From assembly GCA_943331345.2 (NCBI GenBank), contig CALQLF020000013.1:1-49536 (forward strand): a stretch of 49,536 nt of DNA, given 5' to 3'. The stretch is from Candidatus Planktophila lacus (lineage in GTDB: Bacteria; Pseudomonadota; Gammaproteobacteria; Steroidobacterales; Steroidobacteraceae). The notes beneath the pieces were generated by a model, which was not told the DNA's origin, made no database searches, and was given only the letters and a program-made list of their open reading frames with translations. Below, one piece after another: positions 1,342 through 45,561 of the stretch. Positions within the stretch are counted from its first letter, which is position 1. Each line of letters opens with the position of its first letter. The translations under genes and the position numbers were made by a program.

Positions 1342-4300
1342 TTACATCGTGAAGTTGGCGCCGATGTAGAGACGACGGCCGAACAGATCGAAGTTGTCAG
1401 ACGACGTGCCGCCGAGCCACAGGGCCGGCTTCTTGTCGAAGGCATTCACGATGCCGCCACGGATGGTCAGGTTCTTCACTGGCGAATACTGCACGGAGAA
1501 GTCGTGCTGTATGAAGTTGCCAGTGTCGAAGTAGCGTGCATCCTCATAGACGTCGTCGTTACCAGCGAGGGTCGTCTGGTCGATGATCCGCTGCGACTTC
1601 TGCCAGTCCATCTTCCAACGGAGCCCCAAATTCTCGGTCAACACCCAGTCGAGCGTTGATGAGAAACGCATGCGCGGGTAACCAATGAACTTGGAGTTCT
1701 GGAACGACTCGCTGGGGTTGCTGATATTCAGGTAGTCCTGAGCATCCAGCAGGTAGTTACCGCTGAGGTGGTAACCGATGCTGCCCAAGTTCTTGCCCAT
1801 CACGGTTGGGAGCTCCGTGTTGTACAGGAACTGGAAGTCCACGCCTCGCGAGACCAGCTTCGCGTAGTTGACGGAGCCCTGAATGAAGTCGATGACCGCA
1901 TAGGGATTGGCCGCCGAAGCGCCGCCACGCGTGATGGTCGAGCAGATGGCGGAGTTCAGCGTTTCACCGCTGACGCACTGGTTAGCCGCCGTCTGCGCGC
2001 TGACCGATGCGATGACATCCTTGATCTCGATCTCGTAGAAGTCCGCGATGAAGGTGGCCTTCGGCAGGAAGCGCGGCGAATAGATGACCGACGCCGTGTG
2101 GGTGTCAGAGACTTCCGGCTTCAGGAAGGGGTTACCTGCGTTGTTGCCTGGCACACCACTGGTGTAGGTGATAACCGTGCCTGCCGGAATACCCGCCGCC
2201 ACGCAATTACGCTCGCGGTTTGCCCGGACCGTGGTATCCGTGAGGGCGGAAATGACCGTGGCGCTGCAAGGGTCGACAAACCCGTTCGCGAACGTCTGGG
2301 TGGGTGGGCGGAAGTTTTCTGCCAGGTTGGGAACACGCACTGCGCGCCCCGAGGTTGCCCGGAAGGTAACGTCGCTGACGGGGCGCCAGATGAGGTTGTA
2401 GTTGTAGGTGTCCACCGAGCCGACCGTGGTGTAGTCAGACTGGCGGAACGCACCACCCAATTCCAGCGTCTCGGCGAGGAACTTGCCTTTCAGCAAGGGC
2501 ACGCGGATTTCCCCGAACACTTCCTTGGTGGTGTACTTGGCCTCCGGGAAGTCCGGGCCCGTGTTCAAGAACAGGAGGCGGTCGCCGGTGGACGTCGAGC
2601 GACCAATGGACGAGGTGGCCTCCTTGCGCCATTCGCTACCGAGTGCGAAGCCCATCGGGCCGGCACCCCAGAAGTCGCCGATGTCGCCGGAGACGAAGCC
2701 CAGCACGTCGTCTTGGGTGTTCTTGTCCTGCACGTTGATGGTGGCACCAAAGTACTCCATGGCAGCGGCGGAATAGCCGCCCTCACCAAACACGCGCGAG
2801 GGGACGCAGCCGGCGATTTCCGGATTGGTGGGGCTATAGTTACCGCCACGCAATTGGTCCGGGACGGCGATGCCTTGCGCGAGCAGCAACTTCACGCGGC
2901 AGACAATTTCGCCGGGTTTGCCGCTGACCAAGCCGGCGGTATCCACGACCGCATCGACCGAGTGCTTGAAGCGCATCACGTCCACGGCAGTTTCGTAGTT
3001 GACGTTCTTCAGTTCACCATGCGTGAAGCTGAGTTCGTAGGAAACGTTCTTGACGGCGCCGACTTCCGGGAACGAACCGCGGATACCAGCCACGTAACGA
3101 GTCAGTTCCTTTTCGTTCAACTGGCTGCGCGAAGGGCCGAAGATGCTCAAGCGGGCGCGCGGGTCGGAGACCGTGGCGCCGGTGGGTACGCCTGCGGTGG
3201 TGAACGTGGCGCGGCGGTTGGCCAGAATGGCAGCCTTGACCGCGGGGTCGAGGTAGGCGTTGTCGAGGCCGATGTTGAAGCTGGAGGTGCCGAACACGCG
3301 GCTGTCGGTGTTCGCAGCAATGTTCACGATACCGATGTCAAAGAACGTCTGCTGACTTTCGTCATAGGTAGATTCAGTGACGTACTTCATTTCACCGAAG
3401 ATTTGTGCATTTTCGGTGATGTCGAAGTTGAAACCACCCTGCCAACGATCGTTCTTCGAGCGCGGCAGACGGCTGAACTGGCTGAATTCGGTGTTGATGT
3501 TGAGACCATCGCCGCCGACGTTGTTGGAGCGCGAACGGCCGACCATATTGCGCATGGTGCCGAAGTTGGCCAGACGAGCCGCACCGTTGGGGGCGAACTG
3601 GTAGGTGAGGCCGGGTTCGTTGATGATGCACAGCGCGTTGATCGAGCCAGTTGTGCCGGCCGGGCAGCGTTGGTTGGGAATGTTGAGAGCTGCGTTGGGA
3701 GCCATATCGCTCACGAGCGTCAGGGTGCCGCCGCGGGAACGTGACAGGTTGCGGATGCCGCTGACCAGCACGTTGTCGACGACGCCGTCGGACGGGGCAC
3801 TGGCAGGGTCGAAGTCGCGGGCGAGGAAGCCCCAGGCCTGTGCGCGCCAAGGGATGTCGCTGTCGCGGACCTCGTCGTTCGCTTCGCGCTCGTACGAACC
3901 ATAGACGTTCAGGCGACCATCGAAGAAGTTGTGCCCGGCCAAGACCGAGATGCGGTCGTTGCTTTGGCCATCGCTGTTGATTTCGGCACGCGTAGCGTCG
4001 ACTTCCACGCCGGAGAAATTGCGGCGGAGGATGAAGTTGACCACGCCCGAAACGGCGTCTGCACCGTACTGGGCCGAGTTGGCACCGGTCACCAGTTCCA
4101 CGCGCTCGATGAGCAGGCGGGGGATGGTGTCGACGTCTACGGCCAACGAACCGGAAGAGGAACCGACATGGCGACGGCCATCGACCAACGTCAGGGTGCG
4201 GTTGGAACCAAGATCGCGCAGATTGAGCAGGGACAAGCCACCGTCGTTCAAGCCTGAACCCGTGGTGTCTTCCGGCACAATCGAGCCGGACAGTGCCGGC

Positions 4301-8033: not shown

Positions 8034-9064
8034 GCGCGCGCCCCTTCTTGCGGCCACAGGTAACGTGCCAAGGCCACCATCGACAACAACAGCAGCGCAG
8101 CGCCGGCGTTATGGGCCGTGCCGAGCCACAACGGGAACCCACGCAAGATAAGGTTCGCGCCTATCAGCCATTGCAGCAGCAGGGCTGCCGCCACGCCGAG
8201 CGCAGCGAAGCGCAATTCGGCGGACTGCGCTCGGCGCCACGCCAGCAGCGCCAGCCAGCCCAAGAGCAAAGCCACCACGACGGCGCCTATGCGGTGCGTG
8301 TAGTGAATGGCGGTACGCGCTGCCGTGGACAGCACGCCACCTTCATAGTCGACGCCGAGACCGCGCCACAGGACGAAGGCTTCGCTGTAGTCCTTCTCGG
8401 GCCAATAGCTGCCCTGACAGGTCGGGAAATCCGGGCAGGCCACGGCGGCGTAGTTGGTAGAGGTCCAGCCGCCGAGGAACAATTGCACCAGCAACGCGGC
8501 AAAGCCAACCACCCACCAGCGCCGCACTTGGCGTTCTGATGCTTTGGCCTCGCGTCGCTCCGGCACAAGCGAAAGCCACCACAGTAGCGACAGCGTGGTG
8601 AGGCCGCCCAGCAAGTGCGTGGTGACGATGATGGGCTTTACCTTCCACAACACCGTGAGTGCCCCGAACACGCCCTGCAAGATGACGATGGCGAGCACTA
8701 CCCAAGGCAACACGCGTGGTTGAGCAGGGTCGCGGCGGTTCCGCCAACTGTAGACCGCGAGACCGATGATGATCAGGCCGAGCGTGGTGGCGATGTAACG
8801 ATGCACCATCTCGTTCAGCGCCTTCTGGTAATTGAAGGGCTTGAGTGGTGTGGCGGCATTGATGGCGTCGACGTCCTGAACCTGCGCCGGATGCAGTTCG
8901 CCGTAGCAGCCCGGCCAGTCCGGGCAACCTAGCCCGGCGTCGGTGAGGCGCACCCAGGCGCCCACGACCACGACGATGAACGCCAGTGTGGCGGCGCAAA
9001 GTGCCGCACGCCGGAACCAGACGAGGCCAGTGGAAGTTTCGCTATTAGCTTTGGCGTTGCGCAT
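8030..9064 (-). CDS. ctaA: Heme A synthase (COX15/CtaA family)
   Basis: A 344-residue membrane protein that oxidises the heme O methyl group to the formyl of heme A for the aa3 oxidase. Eight membrane helices are apparent. Conserved elements include [17 protein letters not shown] near residue 48, and heme-ligand His in [20 protein letters not shown] and AHNAGA. It begins with ATG, six bases after the small CxxxC protein gene, and overlaps ctaB by four bases. Confidence 0.95.
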
Positions 9065-9070
9065 GAAAGT

Positions 9071-9646
9071 TCAGCCGATGGAAGACAGACCGAGCAGCTT
9101 CTTCAGGTCTTTCTGTAGGCCCTTGTTCTCGAAGTTGGCGGGGTAGTGCAGCACCAGATTGGCATGCGGGTCGGTCAGGTAAAGGTGGAGGCCCTGGGTG
9201 CCTGCGGCTTTTGACAGCGCGGTGGCCAGTTCGGTTGCAGCGGCCGTTTCGAGGCTGACGATGGTGAGCCCCTGGAGGCTGTCTTTAGCGGATGCAGGCA
9301 GTGGTGCAGTGGTGTTCCGCGTCAGCAGTACGCGCGTTACGCGCGCGCTGTCGGCCTTTAGCAGCGTGCGCACCTGGCGGATGCGGTAGAGCATATCGCC
9401 GCAGGCGGCGTCGCATTGTTCTGCTACCACGACCAGCGCCCACTTGTCGGGAACCAATACGCCAGCGGGCATGGGCTGCGCCGGGCTGACCAGTTCGCCA
9501 TGGTTCACGCGGCCTTGAGGACCGGCGCCGAATCGGTACAACAGCGAGGCAACGAGCATGGGGCCGAAGAATAGACAGGCCAGCAGCACCAGCATGCGGC
9601 GCGAACGGGCTTGGGCAGCGAGGTCGATGGCGGGTTCTTGCGACAT
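9071..9646 (-). CDS. Membrane-anchored thioredoxin-like protein with CxxxC, oxidase-locus associated
   Basis: About 191 residues. One N-terminal transmembrane helix (LVLLACLFFGPMLVASLLY) is followed by a periplasmic domain. It has CDAAC near residue 87 (a CxxxC like the SCO copper chaperones) and a C-terminal LYLTDPHANLVLHYP strand resembling the end of SCO thioredoxin folds. The position between SURF1 and heme A synthase supports a role in cytochrome oxidase assembly, perhaps CuA or CuB copper or thiol handling. The match to SCO is partial and a copper function is inferred. The start is the ATG at 9646; a GTG at 9658, touching the SURF1 stop, is an alternative. Confidence 0.75.
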   Translation of the reverse strand: MSQEPAIDLAAQARSRRMLVLLACLFFGPMLVASLLYRFGAGPQGRVNHGELVSPAQPMPAGVLVPDKWALVVVAEQCDAACGDMLYRIRQVRTLLKADSARVTRVLLTRNTTAPLPASAKDSLQGLTIVSLETAAATELATALSKAAGTQGLHLYLTDPHANLVLHYPANFENKGLQKDLKKLLGLSSIG

Positions 9647-9658
9647 GGTTCGGCTCAC

Positions 9659-10450
9659 TCAGTTCTTCGGCTTCAAGGCGGTCCAGCCCCACAACAACAC
9701 CAGCGTCACGGCCAACGCCCACCACTGGATGGCATAGCCGAGGTGGCGCTCCGGCCCAAAGGACAAGGTTGGCACATCCTCTCGGACAAAGCCGTCTGGC
9801 TCGGCGCCGTCCAGCAGCAGGACAAGAGGGTACACCGGCCTGCCGACGGCTGCGGACACCGCGGCAGCATCAGGATAATTCATGACGCGGGGCTGGTTGT
9901 CCGGGACAGGGCTGAAGGCGGCTGGGGCCTCGCGGAGCGCGGCCTGACGGAAATGGTCGAGGCGGCCTTGCACTTGGCGGCCAGTACCGCTGACGGCGAC
10001 GTCTGGTAGTTCCTCCCGGGCGTTGCCCGGCAGCGGCACCCAGCCCCGGTCAACCATGAGAGCGCTACCGTCGGCCAAGAGGAGGGGTGTCAGGACGCGG
10101 TAGCCGGCCGCACCGGCATGGGTTTGGTTGTCCAGCAGCACTTGGCTGCCCGGCAGGTATGCGCCGTTGGCAAAAACCCGCTGGAATTGTGCGCTGGCGT
10201 TCGTATTGGTGCCATTGTTCGCCCCTTGGCCGGCACCCGCATTAGCACCGGTGTTGCCAGTGGGTGCCGTGGGCAGCGCGACCGGCGCCACCAAAGCTTG
10301 GCTAGCCCAGCGGTCGAGCAGGGCCTGCTTCTCGGCGGCCCGGTTCCACTGCCAATGCCCGAGCCATAGCAGCAACGCCAGCAAGGGCAGCATCACTAGC
10401 GTGGGCAGCAAGCTTGGGCGGAAGACTCGGCCGTGGAAGGGGGAGCGCAC
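9659..10450 (-). CDS. SURF1-family cytochrome oxidase assembly protein
   Basis: A 263-residue inner-membrane protein with two transmembrane helices (about 14-32 and 240-258) flanking a periplasmic domain, as in SURF1/Shy1, which helps insert heme A into subunit I. Family motifs are GHWQWNRAAEK at the first helix, DRGWVP near 145 and HLGYAIQWWALA at the end. Residues about 61-88 form a low-complexity Asn/Gly/Ala insertion not typical of the family. The start is GTG at 10450. The stop abuts the next gene. Confidence 0.9.
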   Translation of the reverse strand: MRSPFHGRVFRPSLLPTLVMLPLLALLLWLGHWQWNRAAEKQALLDRWASQALVAPVALPTAPTGNTGANAGAGQGANNGTNTNASAQFQRVFANGAYLPGSQVLLDNQTHAGAAGYRVLTPLLLADGSALMVDRGWVPLPGNAREELPDVAVSGTGRQVQGRLDHFRQAALREAPAAFSPVPDNQPRVMNYPDAAAVSAAVGRPVYPLVLLLDGAEPDGFVREDVPTLSFGPERHLGYAIQWWALAVTLVLLWGWTALKPKN

Positions 10451-10498
10451 TATACTGGTGCCTTGTGTTGCGGGGGCCAGGGGGCCCGGAGGAAAAAA

Positions 10499-10726
10499 GT
10501 GGAACTATTCCGTCTTGTGGTTGTGCTGATGCTGGTGGCTATTGTCTACAACCTCGGCTCAGCGCTGTTTTCCTTGAGCCGCAGCAATCGCGACGCTTTG
10601 GTGGATGGTCGCAAGATGGTGCGGTCACTCACTTGGCGCATCAGTCTTTCGGTCGGCTTGTTCGGGATGTTATTCCTGGCTTGGCACTTCGGCTGGGTGC
10701 AGCCGCACTCGTTAGGTGGACGCTGA
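10499..10726 (+). CDS. DUF2909 twin-transmembrane protein
   Basis: A 75-residue protein with two membrane helices (about 4-20 and 47-66) separated by a charged SLSRSNRD segment. It fits the twin-TM DUF2909 family commonly found near SURF1 in cytochrome oxidase loci. The start is GTG at 10499, fixed by GGAGGAAAA immediately upstream. It is the only plus-strand gene in the oxidase locus, divergent from SURF1 with 48 bases between the two starts and convergent with subunit III. A strong bidirectional terminator follows. The biochemical role is unknown. Confidence 0.85.
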   Translation: MELFRLVVVLMLVAIVYNLGSALFSLSRSNRDALVDGRKMVRSLTWRISLSVGLFGMLFLAWHFGWVQPHSLGGR

Positions 10727-34122: not shown

Positions 34123-35259
34123 TTAAGGAAGTACCACGAAATTGCCACTGGCATTCACGCCGAGAATACGCACGGGCACATTCGGGCGGTTGCCCGTCTG
34201 CGGGTCGATGGTGATGGGACCGGTAGCGCCGGGATAATTCGTCGTGGCACGTAGCTGTCCCAGCACGGGCTCGAAGCTTGTGGTGCGGGCATCGGTGATG
34301 GCGCGGAACAGCAGTTTGGCCGAGTCATAGGTGAACGTGCCCCACACCCCCGGATTCGTGCCCGAAAAACGGGTGCGATAGGCGGCTGCGTAGGCGGTCG
34401 CGCTTGGCATCTGGTCGGGTTCCGGTACACCGCTGAAGACACAGCGCCGGCTGTCGGCTATGCCGGCAGTAGCCACAAAATCGGGGTCCTGGTTGGCCAG
34501 TCCCATGAAGCAGGCAGCGTTGCGGCCACCGGCCGCCTCCGTGGCCAAGGCCTTCGCGATGAGGCCACCTTCCGGGAAGTAGGTACTGACGTAGACCACC
34601 TGCGGCTGCAGATCGAGCGACTGACGGACGACGTCGGTGTAGTCCGCGCGGCCCGGGGTAATTGCCAAACGGATGGCCGTGATACCGCGCGCCATAAGGC
34701 CCGCTTCCATGCGCTGCGCCATGCTGCTGGTATAGGCAGAAGGGTCCACCAGTAGCGCCACGGTGGTGGGCTGCAACGCCGTGATGTAAGCAATCTCCGG
34801 CGGCGAGATCTGGCTGTTCTTGGGCTGCACAGTAACGCCTTGGCCCGTGGTGTCGTCGCTGGAAGTAAGGTGCACGGGGACGATGCCGTCGCGGGTGTAC
34901 TGCGGCAAATTCACCAAGCCCACGCCCGAGTTGTAGGGCCCGATGACTGCGACGGCGCCTTCTTGCTTTACCCGAGCAGCGACGGCTAGGGCTTGCGTGG
35001 GGTCGGCTCGGTCATCTGCTGGGACCAGCACCACGGGCCTGCCCAACACACCGCCGGCGCGGTTGACTTCTTCCACAGCCAACTGCGCGCCCCGCAGCAT
35101 GTCCTGCCCGTTGGAAGTCTGAGCACCGGTAAGCGGCGCTTCGAGCGCGATGACGATGGCGGCGGCGCTGTTGTGCTTTTTCTCGAAGCAGCCGGCTAAG
35201 GGCAAAGTCAGCGCGAACAGCGCCGGCAGAAGAGCGGCGCGAACAGGGAAATGCGGCAA
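34123..35259 (-). CDS. ABC-type branched-chain (LIV-like) substrate-binding lipoprotein
   Basis: 378 residues. A lipoprotein signal (ALFALTLPLAGC, Cys near 24) is followed by a type I periplasmic-binding fold: ALEAPLTGAQTSNGQDMLRG near 38, NRAGGVLGRPV near 65, IGPYNSGVG near 105 and a C-terminal GPITIDPQTGNRPNVPV segment. The best start is TTG 35259 with GGAA upstream; no ATG fits the signal. No permease or ATPase gene is near, so it is an orphan receptor. It is divergent from the exported nitrilase-fold gene and upstream of the putative ergothioneine operon, which could hint at its ligand. Confidence 0.85.
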   Translation of the reverse strand: MPHFPVRAALLPALFALTLPLAGCFEKKHNSAAAIVIALEAPLTGAQTSNGQDMLRGAQLAVEEVNRAGGVLGRPVVLVPADDRADPTQALAVAARVKQEGAVAVIGPYNSGVGLVNLPQYTRDGIVPVHLTSSDDTTGQGVTVQPKNSQISPPEIAYITALQPTTVALLVDPSAYTSSMAQRMEAGLMARGITAIRLAITPGRADYTDVVRQSLDLQPQVVYVSTYFPEGGLIAKALATEAAGGRNAACFMGLANQDPDFVATAGIADSRRCVFSGVPEPDQMPSATAYAAAYRTRFSGTNPGVWGTFTYDSAKLLFRAITDARTTSFEPVLGQLRATTNYPGATGPITIDPQTGNRPNVPVRILGVNASGNFVVLP

Positions 35260-35431
35260 GTGGAGGGTTCCGTTAGGGCCCTGAATGGGCGGACGCACGC
35301 GGAGTGCGGCTACAAAGGGTAGACCGTCCTTGCGGCGCGGACAACTGCGCCTTTTACCCAGTTTCGCCGCAAGCCACGGCGCGCTACGCTCCAACCACAA
35401 CACATACGGGCGAAACGCCCGAGGGGGGAGC

Positions 35432-36673
35432 ATGGCAAGCAAGAAAGACACCCAACCGGCCGACCGTCTGCGTCGGCAGTTCCTGCAGGGAGCAGGCTTG
35501 GCCGGGCTCGCTGGCGCGGGCATGGCGGCGTTCAGTGCTGGTGCTGGCGCAGAAGCGGCCCCGGCCCCGGCCGCTTCGCTTGGAACCCCCGCCGTGACGC
35601 GGGATGCCAAGGCGACTGTCTCCGCGGCAAAGCGCGGTGTCTACCTCTCCTCGCCGCTACGTCAGGACACCATCAGTGTCGCGGCGTTGCAGTCGCGAGT
35701 GCGTTCGGTGGATGTGCGGAACCTTGCCGCCACCATGCAAAGCAATCTGGATCATGTGCTGCGGCTGATTGATTTGGCACAAGGCTCTCCTGAGGAATGG
35801 GGCGGTGAGCAGCGCTGGGGTGGGCATCAAGACCTCATCTGCCTGCACGAGTTCCCGCTGCAGGGCTTCCAGCCATGGACGCGCAAGGAACTGCAGCGCG
35901 TCGCCATCGACTTGCCCGGCCCCGAAACGCAGGCCATTGGTGCGCGGGCCAAGCGCTATAACTGCTACATCGCCTTCGGCTGTTACGCGAAATTGAAGGA
36001 CTGGCCGGGCCACGTCATCAACATGTCGGTCATCGTGGGGCCCACGGGCGAGATAGTGTCCACACAGTGGAAGTCGCGCAACGCGCTCGGCTTGTTCGGT
36101 GAAGGCGCGCTTATTGGTACCACTACCTATGATGTGCTGGACCGCTATGTGGAAATGTATGGCTGGGATGCGGTGCTTCCCATCGCGCGTACGGATATCG
36201 GCAATATCGCCATGACGTCCGTAGGCATAGAACCGATTTTGTACCAGTGCATGGCGATGAAGGGCGCGGAACTGCTCATTCTGACCGTGACGGGCGGTTC
36301 TAATGCCGAATCGGCTAAGGCTACTGCACGTGCGAACCGTTGCTACACGGTAGGGGTAGGCAATTCAGTGTCGCCGGACAACCTCGGGTTCATGGATGCC
36401 GCCGGGGCGAAAGACGAAGGCACGGTCATCTGCGATGCGCGGGGTACGGTCATCGGGCAGACCGAAAACCACCACGAAGACATGGCTACCGCGAGTATTC
36501 CCATCGGCAGCTTTCGCAAGACGCGGCGTATGGCTGAAGTGCCCGTGGCACTGTTATTGCCAGTGTTGCAGCAGTACGAGCCGGTCTTCGGGCCGAATGC
36601 GTTTCTGGAATATCTGCCGACGGATTACAAGGATGGTGGTGCCTACCTGCGGCGACGGATGTCCGGCAAGTAA
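35432..36673 (+). CDS. Tat-exported nitrilase-fold (carbon-nitrogen hydrolase) protein lacking the catalytic Cys
   Basis: 413 residues. A twin-arginine signal (DRLRRQFLQGAGLAG, R14-R15) is followed by an Ala/Pro-rich linker and a nitrilase-superfamily domain (about 65-400). Glu of the triad is in LHEFPLQG (E140) and Lys in WKSRNALG (K214). The elbow that should carry Cys reads IAMTSVGIEPILYQCMAMKGAE, with Thr262/Ser263 where Cys is expected. The GAELLIL strand and the TGGSNAES loop confirm the alignment. It may be an inactive binder or use another nucleophile. The start is ATG 35432 with a GGGGGGAG site. Confidence 0.8.
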   Translation: MASKKDTQPADRLRRQFLQGAGLAGLAGAGMAAFSAGAGAEAAPAPAASLGTPAVTRDAKATVSAAKRGVYLSSPLRQDTISVAALQSRVRSVDVRNLAATMQSNLDHVLRLIDLAQGSPEEWGGEQRWGGHQDLICLHEFPLQGFQPWTRKELQRVAIDLPGPETQAIGARAKRYNCYIAFGCYAKLKDWPGHVINMSVIVGPTGEIVSTQWKSRNALGLFGEGALIGTTTYDVLDRYVEMYGWDAVLPIARTDIGNIAMTSVGIEPILYQCMAMKGAELLILTVTGGSNAESAKATARANRCYTVGVGNSVSPDNLGFMDAAGAKDEGTVICDARGTVIGQTENHHEDMATASIPIGSFRKTRRMAEVPVALLLPVLQQYEPVFGPNAFLEYLPTDYKDGGAYLRRRMSGK

Positions 36674-37227: not shown

Positions 37228-38850
37228 ATGAACCCGGAAGCCCCAATGCGTTGTCGCGGCTGGCGACAGGAAGGCCTGCTGCGCCTGCTCGAAAACGTTC
37301 TTGCCGTCGGCGAAGACCCGGCCAATCTCATCGTGTATGCGGCCCTTGGCAAGGCTGCGCGCGATTGGCCTTCACACGACGCCATCGTCGCCGCGCTCCG
37401 CACCATGGAAGATGGCCAGACGCTGGTGGTGCAGTCCGGTCGTCCGGTGGCTTTGATGACGACCCATCCCGGTGCGCCTTTGGTGGTCATGGCGAACTGC
37501 AATCTGGTGGGACGCTGGGCCCGCGAAGACGTCTTCTACGACCTCGAGCGGCGTGGCCTCATTTGCTGGGGCGGTCTCACGGCCGGCTGCTGGCAATACA
37601 TTGGTTCGCAGGGTGTTATTCAGGGCACCTTCGAAATCTTTGCCTGCATTGCCACGCAACTCGGCTTACCGGATCTGCGCGGCAAGTTCATCCTGACCGC
37701 CGGTCTCGGTGGCATGGGTGGCGCGCAACCGTTGGCAGCGCGGTTGGCCGGGGCTGCTGCGCTGGTGGTGGAAGTAAACCCCGCGCGCATCGACAAACGG
37801 TTGAAAGCGGGCTATCTCGACGCTGTGGCAACCGACCTCGATTCCGCTCTGCAGGCCATTGCGGAACTCCAAGCCGCTGGCCGCGCTGGCTCCATCGGTT
37901 TGTGCGCCAACGCTGCCGATGTCTACCCGGAACTCGTCCGGCGCGGCATCACTCCGGATGTCGTCACCGACCAAACATCCGCACACGACCTCGTCTATGG
38001 CTATGTGCCGCGCGGTTACGCGGCGGGTCTTTCGCGCGAAGAAAAAGCCGCACAGGCGGACCGGCTGATGGCGGATTCACTTACGTCCATCGCTGCGCAC
38101 GTTGAGGCTATGCTGGCGTTCCAGGCGGGCGGTGCCGTGGTATTCGACAACGGCAACCTCATTCGTTCTCAGGCACAGCGTGCGGGTGTCGAGAACGCCT
38201 TCGCCATCCCGGTGTTCACCGAAGCCTTCCTGCGGCCGCTGTTCTGTCAGGGCATTGGCCCGTTCCGATGGATAGCGCTCAGTGGCAACGCGGCAGATAT
38301 CCGCGCCATCGACGCTCACCTGTTGGCGAACTACACCGACAACGCGATGGTGCAGCGTTGGATACGGCTGGCACCGCAAATTCCGTTCGAAGGATTGCCG
38401 GCGCGCATCGCGTGGCTAGGGCATGGGGAGCGAACGCGTCTGGCGGTAGAAGTGAATGGCATGGTGGCCCGCGGCGAACTGGCGGGTCCTATTGCGTTCA
38501 CGCGGGACCATCTGGATGCCGCGGCCATGGCGCATCCGAACATCATGACGGAGAACCTGCGCGATGGCAGCGATGCCGTGGCGGACTGGCCACTGCTGAA
38601 TGCGCTGCTGAATTGCGCTTCGCGAGCGGACCTGGTCACCCTGCATTCTGGCGGCGGTGGTTATGCCGGCTTCATGACGTCTTCCGGCGTTACTCTCATT
38701 GCAGATGGCACCGCAGCGGCTACCGCCAAACTTACTGTCACTTTGAACAATGACACTGGCCTTGGCGTGCTGCGGTACGCCGATGCCGGTTATCCGGAAG
38801 CGCTGGCCGCTGCCGAGCGGCATGGTCTGCAACCTTTGGTGGTCTCGTGA
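37228..38850 (+). CDS. Urocanase-family hydratase, predicted thiourocanate hydratase
   Basis: A 540-residue NAD+-dependent urocanase homologue (HutU is about 555). Family segments are GGLTAGCWQYIGSQGVIQGT near 115-133, the NAD loop GLGGMGGAQPLA near 159-170, DQTSAHDLVYGYVP near 248-261 and DGSDAVADWPLLNALLN near 445. The active-site Cys of urocanases, in ARICWxG, is Ala395 here (ARIAWLG), and the usual SLHHGGG strand reads TLHSGGGG. Both changes fall at the substrate site and fit a modified imidazole substrate. It is first of six overlapping genes; downstream genes specify a lyase, hydantoinase, carbamoylase and DUF917 protein. Ordinary histidine degradation is less likely because hutI and a normal hutH are absent. 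Confidence 0.85.
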   Translation: MNPEAPMRCRGWRQEGLLRLLENVLAVGEDPANLIVYAALGKAARDWPSHDAIVAALRTMEDGQTLVVQSGRPVALMTTHPGAPLVVMANCNLVGRWAREDVFYDLERRGLICWGGLTAGCWQYIGSQGVIQGTFEIFACIATQLGLPDLRGKFILTAGLGGMGGAQPLAARLAGAAALVVEVNPARIDKRLKAGYLDAVATDLDSALQAIAELQAAGRAGSIGLCANAADVYPELVRRGITPDVVTDQTSAHDLVYGYVPRGYAAGLSREEKAAQADRLMADSLTSIAAHVEAMLAFQAGGAVVFDNGNLIRSQAQRAGVENAFAIPVFTEAFLRPLFCQGIGPFRWIALSGNAADIRAIDAHLLANYTDNAMVQRWIRLAPQIPFEGLPARIAWLGHGERTRLAVEVNGMVARGELAGPIAFTRDHLDAAAMAHPNIMTENLRDGSDAVADWPLLNALLNCASRADLVTLHSGGGGYAGFMTSSGVTLIADGTAAATAKLTVTLNNDTGLGVLRYADAGYPEALAAAERHGLQPLVVS

Positions 38851-40112
38851 AAAAAACCGGAACGAAAGCCATCGCGGCAGCCGCTGTAGGCAATGCACTC
38901 GAGTGGTACGACTTCAGCGTCTATGCGCTGTTCGCCATGTATATCGCACCTACCGTGTTTGCCGCACAGGACCGAGTGTCGGGAACCATCGCGGCGTTCA
39001 TCGTGTTTGGGGTGGGGTTCATCGCCCGGCCCGTGGGTGCGGTGGTGCTGGGTGCCTATGGTGACCGTGCGGGCCGCCGTGCAGCGTTGACAGCCTCGCT
39101 GAGCGTGATGGCTCTCGGCACCTTGTGCATTGCCATAGCACCGCCTTACGCGGCCATCGGTATCGGCGCGCCCTTGCTCATTCTGGCGGGGCGCATCCTG
39201 CAGGGGCTGTCCGCCGGTGGGGAGATGGGTGGGGCAGTGTCGTTTCTGGTGGAACATGCACCGCCCGCGCGACGTGGGGTTTACGCGGCCTGGCTGCAAA
39301 GCTCCATGGCCATCTCGAATATTCTCGGGGCCCTTGTGGCGACTACGTTGTCGCTGGCCCTGACGCCTGAAGATCTGGCGGCCTGGGGCTGGCGCGTGCC
39401 CTTCATTCTCGGGTTGGCCATCGTGCCGGTGGGGCTATGGCTGCGCCGTGGTGTGGCCGATACGCCTGAATTCGAACAGGTGCGCCGTGCGGCGGCGGCA
39501 GGTGGCTTTTTTCAGCCACTGCGGCAGGTGTTCGCGCGACATGCCCGGGCACTGGTGGTGTCTGCTGGCATCAGCGTTATCTGGGTAGTGGCGGTGTATG
39601 CGCTCGTCATCTACATGCCAACGTTCATGCAGCGCAGCCTCGGCTTCACGCCACCTCAGGCGTTCGCCGCGGCGCTCGTGGGCAACGTGTTCATGGCGGT
39701 AGGCTGCTTGGGCGCTGGCTGGCTGGCGGACCGCTTCGGCCGTGTTCGTATAGTGGCCGTGGGCGCAGTAGCGCTATTGGTGACGGTGCTACCCGTACTG
39801 TCGTGGGTGGCAGCGATGCGCACAGTGGAAGCGTTGGTCGTCGCCCAAGTGGTGTTCTGTCTGGTGGTGGCCTTGTTTGCCGGCAGCGCACCGGCGCTCA
39901 TTGCCGAACTCTTCCCCACGGATGTCCGGTCGACCGGCGTCTCGTTGGGCTACAACTTTGCAGCAACCGTGTTTGGCGGGTTCGCGCCTGCCGTATTGAC
40001 GTGGTTGACCGAGCGGATGGGAACCCAGATGGCACCCGCTTATTACGTAATGGTCGCTGCGGTGGTGTCTTTGCTGGCTTTGGCGGCAGTACCGCACAGG
40101 CGGCATGCATGA
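38847..40112 (+). CDS. MFS transporter, metabolite:H+ symporter (MHS) type
   Basis: A 421-residue inner-membrane carrier with twelve predicted helices. MHS hallmarks are NALEWYDFSVYALFA near residue 15, RPVGAVVLGAYGDRAGRR in loop 2-3 near 60, and LSAGGEMGGAVSFLVEHAPPARRG near 125. Relatives carry carboxylates and osmolytes such as citrate, alpha-ketoglutarate, proline and betaine. It starts with GTG inside the previous stop (GTGA) and ends in ATGA with the exported lyase. In this operon it could import the thiourocanate-like product made in the periplasm, or the betaine substrate itself. Confidence 0.9.
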   Translation: MKKTGTKAIAAAAVGNALEWYDFSVYALFAMYIAPTVFAAQDRVSGTIAAFIVFGVGFIARPVGAVVLGAYGDRAGRRAALTASLSVMALGTLCIAIAPPYAAIGIGAPLLILAGRILQGLSAGGEMGGAVSFLVEHAPPARRGVYAAWLQSSMAISNILGALVATTLSLALTPEDLAAWGWRVPFILGLAIVPVGLWLRRGVADTPEFEQVRRAAAAGGFFQPLRQVFARHARALVVSAGISVIWVVAVYALVIYMPTFMQRSLGFTPPQAFAAALVGNVFMAVGCLGAGWLADRFGRVRIVAVGAVALLVTVLPVLSWVAAMRTVEALVVAQVVFCLVVALFAGSAPALIAELFPTDVRSTGVSLGYNFAATVFGGFAPAVLTWLTERMGTQMAPAYYVMVAAVVSLLALAAVPHRRHA

Positions 40113-41833
40113 AGCGCTCCCTCGTCCGTGCATCCCGTTGGGTGGGTGGTTGCGTGGCGCTGGCAGGAGCCTGCTTCTCGGCGGTGGCCGCGCCACTGGA
40201 GTTGACTGGCCAACCGCTCGGCGTGGAGCAGGTGGTGGCGGTAGCAGCGGGTTTGCAGCCGGTGTCCGTGCAGCCGGCAGCCCGCGCCCGCGTGACGCAG
40301 GGCTTCGAGGTGGTGCTGGCGGCGGCGCGTGCAGGCATGCCGGTTTACGGCCTTACCACCGGTGTGGGTTGGAACAAAGACCGACAGGCCTTGGTGAAGA
40401 ACGGGGCTCTGGACCCCGACCTGCTGACGGCTTCGCAGCGCTTCAATATTGGCACCTTGCGTGCGCATGCGGCCGCGGTGGGGCCTTGGTTGCCTGACGA
40501 CGCGGTTCGCGCTGCCATGGTGCTGCGGTTGAACTTGCTGCTGAGCGGTGCCGCGGGCGTACAACCTGCCGTCGCTGACCAGTACGCCGCGTTTTTGAAT
40601 GCGGGTATTACGCCGCTCGTGCCGGCGCGCGGAAGTATCGGCGAAGCCGACATTCTACAAAGCAGTCATATTGGGCTGGCTCTGGCTGGCGAATGGCAAG
40701 TGCGCTGGCGCGGCGAACGCTTGCCGGCGGCGGTGGCCTTGCAGCGCGCTGGCCTCAAGCCGGTACAGTTGGTGGGCAAAGACTTCCTCTCCATCATTGG
40801 TGACAACAGCTTGATGCTGGGGCGCGCGGCGTTGGTGCTGCATGGCGCCCGCCAATGGCTCGACCGCGAAACGGTGGTGTTCGCCCTTTCGCTGGAAGGC
40901 CTGAACGGCAATGTGGCGCCATTCCTGGAAGCTAGCGTTGCCGCGCGACCGCGCCCCGGCTTCGTGGCGGCTGCGGCGCAATTGCGTAATGCCTTGGTGG
41001 GAAGTGCTCTGTGGCAAGCGGATGACGCGCGTCCTTTGCAAGACCCGCTATCGTTCCGCACCATGCCCCACGTGTTAGGCAACGCGCGCGCGGCGCTGGA
41101 AGCTGCAGAGGACGAATTCGCCTTCGAAAGTGCGCACAGTGGCGACAACCCACAGGTAGTGCTGAGCGCCGGAACGCTGACCGCAGGCGCCGCGACTACC
41201 GCGAGCCAATCCGCGCGCTATCTCGTACCCGGCACGAGCGCGGCGATTGTGCCGGCTGCGAGCTTCGAGGCCTTGCCGGTGGTTGCGGCGCTCGAACGTC
41301 TGTCGCTGGCTCTGGCTCATGTGGCGTCTTCAGTGGCGAGTACCGTCTACCGTTTCGAGAACCCGGAGATAACGCACCTGCCACGGTTCCTGACCGCCCC
41401 CGGCAATCCGGGACATGGCTTTGGTGCGGTGCAGAAGTCCGTGGCGGCGCTCACGACGGAAATTCGTAGCCTCGCCTTGCCGGTGTCGCTCGACGAAGCC
41501 ACGCTTGCCGGCAACATCGAGGACAAGACCAACAATGCGCCGCTGACGGTGCAGCGCTTGCAGGAAATAGTGGACCTGCTCTATCCGCTGGCGTCGCTAC
41601 AACTCCTGCATGCGGCTCAGGCCGTGGATTTGCGCCCAGGCTTCAAGCAAGGCAGCCAGACGCAAGCTTTACAGCGTGCTTACCGTGCCCGCGTTCCTTT
41701 CGTGGCGCAGGACCGCATTCTGTCGCCGGATATCGAGGCAGGAGCGCAGTTGTTGCGGGAGGGCTGGCCCGGTGCCGCAGGTGTGACCAGTGCCTCCAAG
41801 CCTGTCGCGACCGCAGGGGCAGTTCATGAGTGA
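40109..41833 (+). CDS. Secreted histidine ammonia-lyase homologue without MIO, predicted ergothionase
   Basis: 574 residues. A Sec signal (MKRSLVRASR, hydrophobic core, cleavage near A27 in SAVA-AP) precedes an aromatic amino acid lyase fold that begins at LTGQPLGVEQV. The catalytic Tyr is kept in VYGLTTGVG (Y80), as are QDPLSFRTMPHVLG and SGDNPQVVLS, and the Glu in GNIEDKTNN. The strictly required GSxGASGDL reads GSIGEADIL (175-183), so no MIO cofactor can form, and the usual NGT reads GDN. Loss of MIO fits elimination of a good leaving group such as trimethylamine rather than ammonia. It overlaps its neighbours by 4 and 8 bases. Which betaine it uses is inferred from the pathway. Confidence 0.82.
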   Translation: MKRSLVRASRWVGGCVALAGACFSAVAAPLELTGQPLGVEQVVAVAAGLQPVSVQPAARARVTQGFEVVLAAARAGMPVYGLTTGVGWNKDRQALVKNGALDPDLLTASQRFNIGTLRAHAAAVGPWLPDDAVRAAMVLRLNLLLSGAAGVQPAVADQYAAFLNAGITPLVPARGSIGEADILQSSHIGLALAGEWQVRWRGERLPAAVALQRAGLKPVQLVGKDFLSIIGDNSLMLGRAALVLHGARQWLDRETVVFALSLEGLNGNVAPFLEASVAARPRPGFVAAAAQLRNALVGSALWQADDARPLQDPLSFRTMPHVLGNARAALEAAEDEFAFESAHSGDNPQVVLSAGTLTAGAATTASQSARYLVPGTSAAIVPAASFEALPVVAALERLSLALAHVASSVASTVYRFENPEITHLPRFLTAPGNPGHGFGAVQKSVAALTTEIRSLALPVSLDEATLAGNIEDKTNNAPLTVQRLQEIVDLLYPLASLQLLHAAQAVDLRPGFKQGSQTQALQRAYRARVPFVAQDRILSPDIEAGAQLLREGWPGAAGVTSASKPVATAGAVHE

Positions 41834-43202
41834 TTTCGATCTGGTGATCTCCGGGCAGGTGGTACTGCCCGAACGTCTATTGCGGCGTGGCTTTGTGGCC
41901 ATTCGCGACGGCAAGGTAGCAGCGGTCGGGGAAGGCCCGTCGCCGGCAGCGCGTGAAAGCCACGACTTCGGTGAGGCGCTCGTGTTGCCTGGTGCCATCG
42001 ATTCCCAAACCCATGCGCGCAGTACGCGCGGCGTGGAAGACTTCGACACCATGACGCGCGCAGCGGCTGCCGGTGGTGTCACGACGGTGGTGGACATGCC
42101 CTACGACAACGGGCGTCTCATCTGCAATGCGGAGCGCTTCGGGCTGAAGGTGGCGGAGGCCGGTGCCTTGTCGCGCGTGGACTTCGCGCTTTATGCCACG
42201 GTACATCCGCAAGAAGGCGCCGCACGCATTGATGAACTCGTGGCCGCCGGAGCCGCAGGCTTCAAGTTCAGCACTTTCGGCACGGACCCAGAACGTTTCC
42301 CGCGCATTCCTCCGGCCACGTTGCACGACTGCTTCGCGCGTATCGCTAGGCACGGGCTCGTGGCGGGGGTGCACAACGAAGACGATGAAACGGTGCGTCT
42401 GCTCGAGGCACGCGTTCGCGCTGCAGGTGTGCAGGGCTATTTGGCGCACGGACAAAGCCGGCCCATCTACAGCGAAAACCTCGCGGTGGCGACCATCTAT
42501 GAAACGGGCGCAGACACCCGATGCCGAGCGCATGTGGTGCACTGTTCAAATGGTCGCGGATACGAGCTTTGCGCGGCCTACCGACAGATGGGGCACCAAG
42601 CGACCATCGAAGCCTGCCTGCACTATTTGGTGTTGTGCGAAGAAGACCTTGCGCGACTCGGTGCCTTCGGCAAGGTGAACCCGCCTATTCGTCCTGCCGT
42701 GGAGCGTGAGAAGCTCTGGCAGCATCTCGCGGCCGGGAACATCACGGTGGTGTCGACGGACCATGTGAGCTGGCCGCTGGAACGCAAGAACTTGGACGAC
42801 TTCCATGCCAACGCGTCCGGCGCGCCCGGCCTTGAAGTGTTGTATCCGTTGTTGTTGAAGGGCTGCACCGAACGGGGATTGTCGCCGAGCTTTGCGGCCC
42901 GGTTGCTGGCGCAGAACCCCGCGCAACTGTTCAATCTCACTGCCACCAAGGGCGCGTTGCAAGTCGGTTGCGATGCTGACGTGGTGGTGATGGAGCCTGG
43001 CCACACCGTGTACGACCCGGTCGCCAGCGGGCACAGTGTTGCCAGCTGGAGCCCTTACGCTGGCATGCACTTGCCATGGCGCGTGACGGGCACTTGGCTG
43101 CGTGGCGCCCCGGTGTTCGATGGCGCGCGGGTATTGGCGGCACCGGGCCATGGGCGCTTTGTGCGCCCCATAGCGTCGCATGAAGTGGCGGTGCCAGCGT
43201 GA
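41826..43202 (+). CDS. Cyclic amidohydrolase (hydantoinase/allantoinase family), predicted hydantoin-propionate hydrolase
   Basis: A 458-residue amidohydrolase of the dihydropyrimidinase/allantoinase group. Metal-site residues are the carboxylated Lys K147 (AGFKFST), H183 (GVHNEDD), H239 (VVHCSN) and D312 (STDHVSW). The first motif, normally DxHxH, reads D59-S-Q61-T-H63, so one metal His is Gln. It would open the hydantoin ring of hydantoin-5-propionate to N-carbamoyl-glutamate. The start at 41826 overlaps the lyase by eight bases; the end overlaps the carbamoylase (GTGA). Allantoin as substrate is an alternative, but other allantoin genes are missing. Confidence 0.83.
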   Translation: MSDFDLVISGQVVLPERLLRRGFVAIRDGKVAAVGEGPSPAARESHDFGEALVLPGAIDSQTHARSTRGVEDFDTMTRAAAAGGVTTVVDMPYDNGRLICNAERFGLKVAEAGALSRVDFALYATVHPQEGAARIDELVAAGAAGFKFSTFGTDPERFPRIPPATLHDCFARIARHGLVAGVHNEDDETVRLLEARVRAAGVQGYLAHGQSRPIYSENLAVATIYETGADTRCRAHVVHCSNGRGYELCAAYRQMGHQATIEACLHYLVLCEEDLARLGAFGKVNPPIRPAVEREKLWQHLAAGNITVVSTDHVSWPLERKNLDDFHANASGAPGLEVLYPLLLKGCTERGLSPSFAARLLAQNPAQLFNLTATKGALQVGCDADVVVMEPGHTVYDPVASGHSVASWSPYAGMHLPWRVTGTWLRGAPVFDGARVLAAPGHGRFVRPIASHEVAVPA

Positions 43203-44467
43203 GTCGGCCGCGCGGCGCCAAGCTGCCGCAGGTGGATGGTGCACGCGCGTGGCAGTGGCTGGAACAGTTGGCAGCCATCACCGAGCCAGAGCGTCCATGG
43301 ACGCGTTGTGCGTTCACCTCTTGGCACGTGCAGGGGCGGGCTTGGCTGCGTGAGCGCTTTGTGGAAGCTGGCTTGGCGGTGCGCGTGGACGCTGCCGGCA
43401 ATCTCATTGGACGCCGCGAAGGCCGGGTTCCCGGCGCGCCGGTGCTGATGGTCGGTTCGCATAGCGATACGGTGCCTGGTGGCGGGCGGTTCGACGGCAT
43501 GGCCGGCGTGGTAGCGGGGCTTGAACTGGCCACGGCGCTGCGCGATGCCGGACACCTGCTCGACCATGCTTTTGAAGTGGTCGATTTTCTGGCGGAAGAG
43601 CCGAATCCGTATGGGCTTTCCTGCATAGGCAGTCGTGGTATTGCGGGGGCACTTACATCGGCCATGCTGGAGCGCCGTGATGGTAGTGGCGTGCCGCTGC
43701 ACCAGCGGTTGCTGGAGGCGGGTGCGGGCGGCGTACCCGTGGCGTCCGCAGTGCGTAGTGACGTGAAGGCGTTTCTCGAACTGCATATCGAGCAAGGTCC
43801 AATGCTCGAGGAGCGCGGGCTGGACGTTGGCATTGTCACGACCATCGTCGGCATTCGCCGCCTGGCTTTGCGGTTCGTGGGGCAGGCGGCCCATGCCGGC
43901 ACCACGCCGTATGCCTTGCGCCGCGATGCGCTCGTGGCCGCCAGTGCGTTCATCGCCGGGTTGCCTGCTCTCATTCAAGCGGGTGCGCAGCCCGGCGCCT
44001 ATCTCGTGTCCACGGTCGGGGAACTGAAAGTGCTACCGAACGCGGCGAATGTGGTGCCGGCCGTCGCCGAGCTCACTGTCGACTTGCGTAGCGATCAACC
44101 AATTTTGCTCGAGGCGTGGAGCGAACGGGTCAAGGCATTCGCGAGCGAAGCGGCGACGCGACATGGAGTGACGTTGGCGGACTGTGCGCAGCTTTCTGCC
44201 AGTGAGCCGGCGCCGTGTGCGCCTGGAGTGCAGAACGCCTTGAGAAAAGCTGCCACGGCGCTGGGCTTGCGTCAGCAAGACATGGTGAGTGGGGCCGGCC
44301 ACGATGCCGCGTTTTTGGCACGCGTGGCGCCTGCTGGCATGGTGTTCGTGCCTAGCCACCATGGCATGAGCCATACCGCAGACGAATGGACGGACGCGCA
44401 ACAGTTGGAAAAAGGCATGGCTACCTTGCTGGGCGCTGTGTTGGAACTGGATGGAGCTGCAGCATGA
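43199..44467 (+). CDS. M20-family N-carbamoyl-L-amino-acid hydrolase (AllC/HyuC type)
   Basis: A 422-residue dinuclear zinc amidase. Metal and substrate motifs are GSHSDTVPGGGRFDG (about 86-100), FLAEEPNPYG near 130, LELHIEQGP near 198, QAAHAGTTP near 232 and PSHHGMSHTADEW near the end. It cleaves N-carbamoyl amino acids or allantoate to amino acid, CO2 and ammonia. Directly after a hydantoinase-type gene, the expected substrate is N-carbamoyl-L-glutamate. The GTG start lies inside the previous stop. All expected metal ligands are present. Confidence 0.9.
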   Translation: MSRPRGAKLPQVDGARAWQWLEQLAAITEPERPWTRCAFTSWHVQGRAWLRERFVEAGLAVRVDAAGNLIGRREGRVPGAPVLMVGSHSDTVPGGGRFDGMAGVVAGLELATALRDAGHLLDHAFEVVDFLAEEPNPYGLSCIGSRGIAGALTSAMLERRDGSGVPLHQRLLEAGAGGVPVASAVRSDVKAFLELHIEQGPMLEERGLDVGIVTTIVGIRRLALRFVGQAAHAGTTPYALRRDALVAASAFIAGLPALIQAGAQPGAYLVSTVGELKVLPNAANVVPAVAELTVDLRSDQPILLEAWSERVKAFASEAATRHGVTLADCAQLSASEPAPCAPGVQNALRKAATALGLRQQDMVSGAGHDAAFLARVAPAGMVFVPSHHGMSHTADEWTDAQQLEKGMATLLGAVLELDGAAA

Positions 44468-45561
44468 AACGGGTACTGACGGCCGAGGATGTGGAGTTCG
44501 CCGTGAAGGGCGGGTCAGTGCTGGCTTGTGGTGGTGGTGGTTGGCCGGAACACGGGCGCGAACTGGGCAACTTGGCCGTCACCATCGGGCGGCCCGAATT
44601 GGTATCGCTGGATGAAGTGGACGACGTGGCGTGGATAGCCACCGCAGCTGCCATCGGTGCGCCGGGTGGGCTTACCCAGTGGCAGATGCTCGGCATGGAC
44701 TACGTCACTGCGGTGAAGCGGCTGCAGGAAGCGCTGGGTAAGCCGCTGTATGGCCTGATCATCGGCCAGAACGGCATGAGTAGCACCTTGAACGCGTGGC
44801 TACCGAGTGCGGTTCTCGGCACCAAGGTCATCGATGCGGTAGGGGATATTCGTGCTCACCCCACCGGTGACATGGGGTCCCTCGGCCTGGCTGCCAGTCC
44901 ACTACCGACTATCCAGACAGTGGCCGGTGGTCACCGCGCCAGCAATTCCTATCTCGAGGCCACGTTCCATGGCCCAACGGCAAAAATCTCTCCGTTGCTG
45001 CGTGCGGCGGCGGATGCCTCGGGTGGCTTCATTGCCAGCTGCCGGAACCCCATCGACGCCGCCTATGTGAAGCGTCATGCCGCACTCGGTGGCATCAGTT
45101 TTGCGCTGGCACTGGGGCAAGCCATCAGCGCAGCGGAGCCACGCGGGGCCACGGCTGTCATCGATGCCATTTGCCGCCAGCTGCACGGCGAAATTCTGGT
45201 GTCTGGCAAGGTGACGGCGAAGGTGCTGGAGTACACGCAGTCCACGGCTTTCGATGTTGGCCGCATTACTATCGCGGGGCCCCACCAAGACGTGGTGGTG
45301 CACGTGATGAACGAGCACATGGCGGTGGAAAGCGCCGCTGGCGAGCGGCTCGCCACCTACCCGGATGTCATCACCACGCTCATGGCGAACGGCGAGCCGG
45401 TGAGTGCCGGACGGTTGCAGGTTGGCATGGAGGTCCATTTGCTGCGCGTAGCCAAGCAGCACTTTGCGCTGTCGTCGAGCGTCACGGACCCTACGGTTTA
45501 CCCCATCGTCGAAAAGACGCTGGGGCTCGCCATCGCCGACTATGCGTTGGCGCCCGTGTGA
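44464..45561 (+). CDS. DUF917 family protein, candidate thioxo-imidazolidine desulfhydrase
   Basis: A 365-residue cytosolic protein of DUF917, whose relatives often stand next to hydantoinase and oxoprolinase genes. The family start MKRVLTAEDVEFAVKGGSVL is followed by ACGGGGWPEHGRE, GAPGGLTQWQ, a conserved HPTGDMGSLG near 138 and EVHLLRVAK near the C-terminus. No signal peptide. It is the last gene of the operon, overlapping the carbamoylase by four bases. By elimination it is the best candidate for removing sulfur (thioxo to oxo) between the hydratase and hydantoinase steps. This is inference from context, not from a motif. Confidence 0.75.
   Translation: MKRVLTAEDVEFAVKGGSVLACGGGGWPEHGRELGNLAVTIGRPELVSLDEVDDVAWIATAAAIGAPGGLTQWQMLGMDYVTAVKRLQEALGKPLYGLIIGQNGMSSTLNAWLPSAVLGTKVIDAVGDIRAHPTGDMGSLGLAASPLPTIQTVAGGHRASNSYLEATFHGPTAKISPLLRAAADASGGFIASCRNPIDAAYVKRHAALGGISFALALGQAISAAEPRGATAVIDAICRQLHGEILVSGKVTAKVLEYTQSTAFDVGRITIAGPHQDVVVHVMNEHMAVESAAGERLATYPDVITTLMANGEPVSAGRLQVGMEVHLLRVAKQHFALSSSVTDPTVYPIVEKTLGLAIADYALAPV

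Follow-up and report, generated by a model that had tools for sequence, protein, structure and literature searches.

The window analysed here, a stretch of 49,536 nucleotides, is contig 13 (CALQLF020000013.1) of a 3.17 Mb draft genome from the Steroidobacteraceae (96.16% complete, 184 contigs). At positions 37228–45561 it carries six closely packed plus-strand genes that we read as a probable ergothioneine utilisation operon with a predicted exported lyase (Table 1). Successive genes overlap by 4, 4, 8, 4 and 4 bp, every frame is intact, with a single stop codon at its end, and the next long frame downstream of ertC lies on the opposite strand, with its low end at 45566. An original prediction, made from the letters alone, had described a six-gene operon here with overlaps of 4–8 bp and had named the protein families, DUF917 among them; the layout is as described, and Pfam agrees on the families: urocanase N-terminal, Rossmann-like and C-terminal domains, Sugar_tr/MFS_1, Lyase_aromatic, Amidohydro_1, Peptidase_M20 and, in the sixth protein, the N- and C-terminal S-Me-THD domains (PF06032, which we take to be the former DUF917).

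Table 1. Genes and features of the predicted ergothioneine operon, in window coordinates.
Feature	Position	Strand	Start and basis
ertB, thiourocanate hydratase (urocanase fold), predicted; no signal peptide expected	37228–38850	+	ATG start; Pfam urocanase domains, tree clade with 7NED
Major facilitator superfamily (MFS) transporter near the metabolite/H+ symporters (MHS)	38847–40112	+	GTG start; TIGR00883 match under cut-off
ertA, predicted ergothionase-type lyase lacking the 4-methylideneimidazol-5-one (MIO) motif, 574 aa including N-terminal leader	40109–41833	+	ATG start; 6S7J match, motif
Predicted signal peptide of lyase, MKRSLVRASRWVGGCVALAGACFSAVAA	40109–40192	+	heuristic; end placed by eye
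ertD, predicted hydantoin-5-propionate amidohydrolase	41826–43202	+	ATG start; NCBIfam NF058538
ertE, predicted N-carbamyl-L-glutamate amidohydrolase (M20)	43199–44467	+	GTG start; NCBIfam NF058540
ertC, predicted thiohydantoin desulfurase (S-Me-THD/DUF917 family)	44464–45561	+	ATG start; NCBIfam NF058529

The lyase has the aromatic-lyase fold (PF00221, 399.3 bits), and its top sequence match in the PDB is 6S7J, the Treponema denticola ergothionase. A structure model (mean predicted local distance difference test score, pLDDT, of 86.5) was also closest to 6S7J (Z = 42.2, root-mean-square deviation 1.9 over 495 residues), followed by a histidine ammonia-lyase (HAL; Z = 38.8). At the MIO position the window lyase reads GSIGEA-D, against ASGD in all seven MIO-bearing relatives. 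Lys90, Lys443, Glu387 and Asn476 are common to the window lyase and 6S7J and absent from the MIO-bearing relatives, whereas Tyr80, His120, Arg317 and Glu471 are common to the window lyase and those relatives. The two lysines, one of which we take to be catalytic, are present in 6S7J, kept in 78/79 (Lys90) and 76/79 (Lys443) related rows, and found in 0/7 MIO-bearing relatives. A lyase tree from a quick search, in which the seven MIO-bearing HALs served as outgroup, separated every MIO-less row from them with a support of 100 (Shimodaira–Hasegawa-like approximate likelihood-ratio test, SH-aLRT). By sequence and modelled fold, the window lyase is predicted to be an ergothionase-type enzyme that releases trimethylamine from ergothioneine.

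Enzymes for the later steps were called with pathway-specific NCBIfam models (June 2026) and their curated cut-offs. ErtC passed the thiohydantoin desulfurase model NF058529 (557.8 bits, cut-off 440), ErtD passed NF058538 (704.9 bits, cut-off 600) and ErtE passed NF058540 (529.5 bits, cut-off 520). ErtB was assigned by its clade: in a tree of 32 rows it lay inside a 26-row thiourocanate-hydratase clade with 7NED (support 100/99), and HutU and 8Q9U lay outside. This tree includes two very long rows (L100 and L039) and is read at the level of the clade; 7NED, listed in the PDB as a urocanate hydratase, is counted as a thiourocanate hydratase on its model score. Two loops of ErtB resemble 7NED, and ErtB reads TDQTSAHDLVYGYVP as 7NED does, whereas 8Q9U reads TDQCMVDPYRGYVP. 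The 8Q9U/8Q9V enzyme, also listed as a urocanate hydratase, is presumably an S-methyl thiourocanate hydratase, with the same urocanase fold as ErtB and a related reaction. The original prediction had proposed a MIO-less lyase comparable with the Treponema enzyme and one protein for every ergothioneine step plus a transporter, and had left room for the lyase and urocanase falling among ordinary histidine-degrading enzymes. Neither falls there, and the remaining proposals are borne out by the 6S7J matches, the motif, three NCBIfam cut-offs and the ErtB clade.

In the lyase leader (MKRSLVRASRWVGGCVALAGACFSAVAA) a charged start is followed by a hydrophobic core, and small residues precede the fold; residues 1–23 of the model have a pLDDT under 50, and the fold alignment starts at residue 28. 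Signal peptides were called with our own heuristic, whose first acceptable cleavage site in this leader is after residue 24, the end given in Table 1 being set by eye. The heuristic was positive in 39 of 80 lyases, or 38 once L079 is overruled; two of the 80, the truncated L106 and L102, in which the motif is absent, lay beyond it and were excluded from the topology counts. Among controls it was positive in 0/90 ErtB, ErtC, ErtD and ErtE proteins of the same loci (the identical contigs L032 and L033 each being counted) and in 0/7 MIO-bearing lyases. L057, L081 and L086 were assigned to the exported group by their sisters despite a negative call, L079 was assigned to the cytosolic group despite a positive one, and the truncated L062, excluded from the counts over 41 exported and 36 cytosolic lyases, was labelled exported by its sisters in the tree-based and relaxed comparisons. 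The heuristic accepts the window leader, with an n-region, a hydrophobic core and a cleavage site ahead of the fold, which suggests export of the lyase, putatively through Sec.

We put the probability at roughly 0.8 that these genes form an ergothioneine utilisation operon that works across the inner membrane. The MIO-less lyase would be exported to the periplasm, where it would cleave ergothioneine to trimethylamine and thiourocanate. The neighbouring MHS-like symporter, which we infer to be a thiourocanate importer, would bring this product into the cytosol, where ErtB would hydrate it to thiohydantoin propionate, ErtC would remove the sulfur to give hydantoin-5-propionate, ErtD would open the hydantoin ring and ErtE would release glutamate from the resulting N-carbamoylglutamate. 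The six genes would presumably be co-transcribed. The original prediction had seen the operon as arranged around an exported first enzyme, a description that fits the leader as called by the heuristic.

The order of cleavage and import was approached through the neighbours of related lyases, compared in 79 loci from one contig scan (the best 80 of 186 relatives) plus the window, each searched within its own flanks, some of them short. A betaine importer (BCCT or OpuAC) adjoins 32/36 cytosolic and 0/41 exported lyases, counts that rest on queries taken from the cytosolic loci, with a possible bias toward finding importers there, and on tblastn calls, apart from one BCCT (L088) and one OpuAC (L065) confirmed by Pfam; the OpuAC calls of L084, L091, L097 and L105 are at only 29–33% identity. 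None was found in the 42 exported loci even in a relaxed search at E 1e-3, nor did hidden Markov models built from the cytosolic loci find a betaine importer in the exported set. MHS relatives, in turn, adjoin 16/41 exported lyases and 1/36 cytosolic ones, and an FAD-dependent reductase adjoins 8/41 and 0/36, respectively; molybdenum hydroxylases adjoin 20/36 cytosolic and 2/41 exported lyases. The split was complete among the 29 loci with an ErtB at 55% identity or more: 18/18 exported loci have an MHS (15) or TRAP (3: L035, L036 and L064) transporter, and 11/11 cytosolic loci a betaine importer, either BCCT (2) or OpuAC (9). Having a periplasm cannot by itself explain this, because all 11 cytosolic loci counted as diderm by name (Synergistota, spirochaetes and one betaproteobacterial metagenome-assembled genome, MAG) carry BCCT. 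An Acetomicrobium (L034) and a Holophagaceae MAG (L048) combine an exported lyase with a molybdenum hydroxylase and DcuC or MHS, and have no BCCT. The most economical reading is that, in the exported branch, cleavage comes first and the carboxylate product is what enters the cell.

Several observations weigh against the reading of periplasmic cleavage followed by thiourocanate import. The transporter scores 371.8 bits on TIGR00883, under the cut-off of 443.45; the match is nearly full length and the best of 21 models, which makes the protein an MFS member close to the MHS subfamily. That subfamily includes betaine carriers such as ProP, so the protein could carry ergothioneine. L097 breaks the pattern, with an MHS gene (and a 31% OpuAC match) next to a cytosolic lyase. 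DcuC, which we read as a carboxylate carrier, lies beside the exported lyase of L034 and also near four cytosolic ones (L061, L070, L071 and L103), and therefore says little alone. In 6/42 exported loci (L039, L041, L047, L049, L051 and L110) no importer or reductase that was looked for is close by; in L039 the sole candidate is a TRAP gene at a distance of 5.2 kb. The exported (42) and cytosolic (37) rows of the lyase tree are explained by one change, and an independent-pairs test gave one usable pair, on an earlier tree with faulty outgroup rows. The association of importer with topology is thus not statistically independent, and no p-value can be attached to it, since the entire split may go back to a single event in evolution. 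No regulator gene is among the six. Finally, ErtB scores 907.9 bits on the thiourocanate hydratase model NF058530, 22 short of the cut-off of 930, and the sole cut-off it passes is that of the broad hutU model (667.3 bits, cut-off 375). Taken alone, the curators' rule would name it HutU; calibration argues otherwise, with 7NED (1006.5) and seven hydratases of related loci scoring 998.6–1031.8 on NF058530 and a HutU-type control, from L052, scoring 698.4 on the thiourocanate hydratase model against 945.3 on hutU.

Two of these points would fit a more ordinary topology, in which ergothioneine itself enters through the MHS protein and is cleaved in the cytosol, the leader of the lyase being uncleaved or no export signal at all. 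The ProP (glycine betaine/proline carrier) model is the third match of the transporter, at 252.7 bits against a cut-off of 544, and L097 does pair a cytosolic lyase with MHS. We nevertheless regard this arrangement as unlikely: the leader stands outside the fold, the frequent positive calls among lyases find no counterpart in either control set, the two groups of rows part by the single change noted above, and no exported lyase has a betaine importer beside it, TRAP or DcuC replacing MHS in four loci.

It is less likely still that enzymes of these classes serve here to degrade an analogue (S-methyl-ergothioneine, ergothioneine sulfonate, selenoneine or hercynine). By presumed chemistry, each such route would call for a lyase and a urocanase homologue, probably together with the same two final hydrolases, and the shortfall of ErtB against its own cut-off speaks for such a route. 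On the S-methyl models, however, ErtC drops to 257.1 bits (cut-off 450) and ErtB to 708.5 bits (cut-off 880), which disfavours S-methyl-ergothioneine. A hercynine route needs neither a desulfurase nor a thiourocanate hydratase, and a sulfonate route is not known to need a desulfurase. None of these arguments tells against selenoneine, which is still a possible substrate. Because the desulfurase and the hydratase both score highest on the thio models, ergothioneine is favoured over S-methyl-ergothioneine and hercynine, and the "ergothioneine or analogue" of the original prediction is narrowed accordingly. A duplicated histidine (hut) pathway, to which the plain Pfam names and the hutU cut-off would point, was rejected as barely credible: the MIO motif is lost, both trees place the lyase and ErtB outside HAL and HutU, a desulfurase is present, and, because the operon's own lyase and urocanase are the sole ones detected in the draft genome, the operon is no spare copy of hut. 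We also considered export as a means of protecting the cell's own ergothioneine pool, which is unsupported for this genome, as no EgtD-family protein was found in the draft.

The same gene set recurs in the family. When the lyase was searched against 200 genomes of the Steroidobacteraceae, 138, the window genome included, gave at least one match with an E value of 1e-20 or lower, with up to five matches of any kind per genome; among the matches listed, G194 alone was close to the window lyase (69% identical), the others being at most 36% identical. G194, of a different genus, carries these six genes in the same order, which argues that their grouping is more than chance; its lyase is 66–69% identical to that of the window, with a leader that the heuristic also accepts. 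Its contig is identical to the public record VBNY01000203.1, a Gammaproteobacteria MAG. The frames that flank the genes there (2–1723 and 10199–11533 of L032) were unmatched by the two window flank proteins tested. This difference suggests that the conserved unit is just these six genes. On the G194 contig (L032/L033) the thiourocanate hydratase is broken across two reading frames at about 1720–3379, through assembly error or real damage. In the window, a carbon-nitrogen hydrolase of the nitrilase/amidase family (35285–36673, plus strand) lies upstream of the operon and has, by eye, an internal twin-arginine-like leader (RRQFLQGAGLAGLAGAG). A tblastn search with this hydrolase and with a binding protein (34123–35610) found nothing on the contig of G194, which extends only ~1.7 kb upstream of its ertB, and both proteins are excluded from the proposed unit.

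The pathway itself is already known. Burkholderia sp. HME13 reportedly degrades ergothioneine through the ErtA–E reaction sequence, the same five enzyme classes as in the window, where ErtB–E best match models named for that pathway. The window differs in having six genes in one overlapping unit and in gene order, its lyase standing between MHS and ertD. On a Burkholderia arboris plasmid (L113) the order is ertC-ertB-MHS-lyase, with ertD-ertE nearby on the other strand, and the lyase has a leader (MQRFLMRSAVALALFAAVPAFA) that is positive by the heuristic. Since this lyase, from the genus of HME13, also has a leader, export of the lyase is probably the rule in Pseudomonadota. The Treponema denticola ergothionase 6S7J shares the fold, the lack of a MIO motif and the conserved lysines with the window lyase, at 35–38% identity, but aligns from residue 2 and so has no leader; unlike the window, the Treponema/Spirochaetaceae loci L080, L089 and L099 have a leaderless lyase beside BCCT and a molybdenum hydroxylase. 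Paenibacillus-type loci (e.g. L090 and L111; 7NED is among their hydratases) hold ErtB, ErtC, ErtD, ErtE and the lyase together, as the window does, but their lyase is leaderless and an OpuAC-type betaine ABC importer replaces MHS.

What would be new is thus the topology, a lyase that is exported and a product that is imported. Beyond the window, we lean towards the view that ergothioneine catabolism takes two forms: betaine import followed by cytosolic cleavage, and, across several Gram-negative phyla, periplasmic cleavage, with trimethylamine left outside, followed either by thiourocanate import through MHS or TRAP or by periplasmic reduction. In Sutterellaceae, Halarcobacter and Campylobacter (L042, L043, L044, L045, L058, L053, L063 and L083) an exported lyase lies within ~2 kb of an FAD_binding_2 reductase, a putatively periplasmic enzyme that could possibly reduce thiourocanate or urocanate as an electron acceptor. 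Cytosolic lyases of Clostridium, Synergistaceae and Treponema (e.g. L061, L070, L082, L088 and L101) adjoin BCCT and xanthine-dehydrogenase-like molybdenum hydroxylases, the latter being candidates for thiourocanate desulfuration.

The operon extends the known pathway to a bacterium in whose draft genome the aromatic lyase and the urocanase of this operon are the only ones found. Should the topological reading hold, it predicts that trimethylamine is made outside the inner membrane and would give a group of MHS-like transporters its first candidate substrate. Sutterella and Turicimonas, which are gut genera, fall on the exported side of the lyase tree, so that their lyases would bear on gut trimethylamine from a dietary antioxidant. 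Thiourocanate would be an exposed intermediate, available to neighbouring cells, and thiourocanate cross-feeding among gut bacteria has been reported, as cited in PMC13405746. In the open-access literature searched, which does not include the key papers, nothing was found linking ergothionase to a signal peptide, ergothioneine to urocanate reductase, or hercynine to trimethylamine, a lyase and urocanate; ergothionase with periplasm returned only PMC4621440, which uses the words in an unrelated way.

Other MIO-less lyases came to light alongside the ergothionase type. In the family of the window, 15 of 28 loci examined (L004, L005, L007–L012, L014, L015, L017, L020, L021, L024 and L028) hold a second MIO-less group, with RGTVGEGDL and no GVGWNKD, at 30–33% identity to the window lyase. 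Their leaders are hydrophobic by eye in 15/15 and accepted by the heuristic in 11/15, and in the lyase tree the group, on a long branch, sits within the exported rows. Bordetella (L050, L052 and L055) and a related Achromobacter clade (L059, L062, L081, L092 and L095) have a MIO-less lyase with GVGQNKD, mostly with leaders. All eight of these loci encode a TctC-type binding protein next to the lyase, and the three from Bordetella also have a urocanase 0.2–0.3 kb from the lyase, that of L052 being a canonical HutU (945 bits). These lyases are possibly hercynine trimethylamine-lyases that feed urocanate into histidine breakdown. Finally, Sinorhizobium meliloti pSymA (L114) encodes an ergothionase-type lyase at 8977–10617, with no match to an ert or importer query within ~9 kb; by eye its leader resembles a signal peptide, but the heuristic rejects it. 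A lyase match was found in 26 Sinorhizobium plasmid records, some of which are annotated as hutH or histidine ammonia-lyase.

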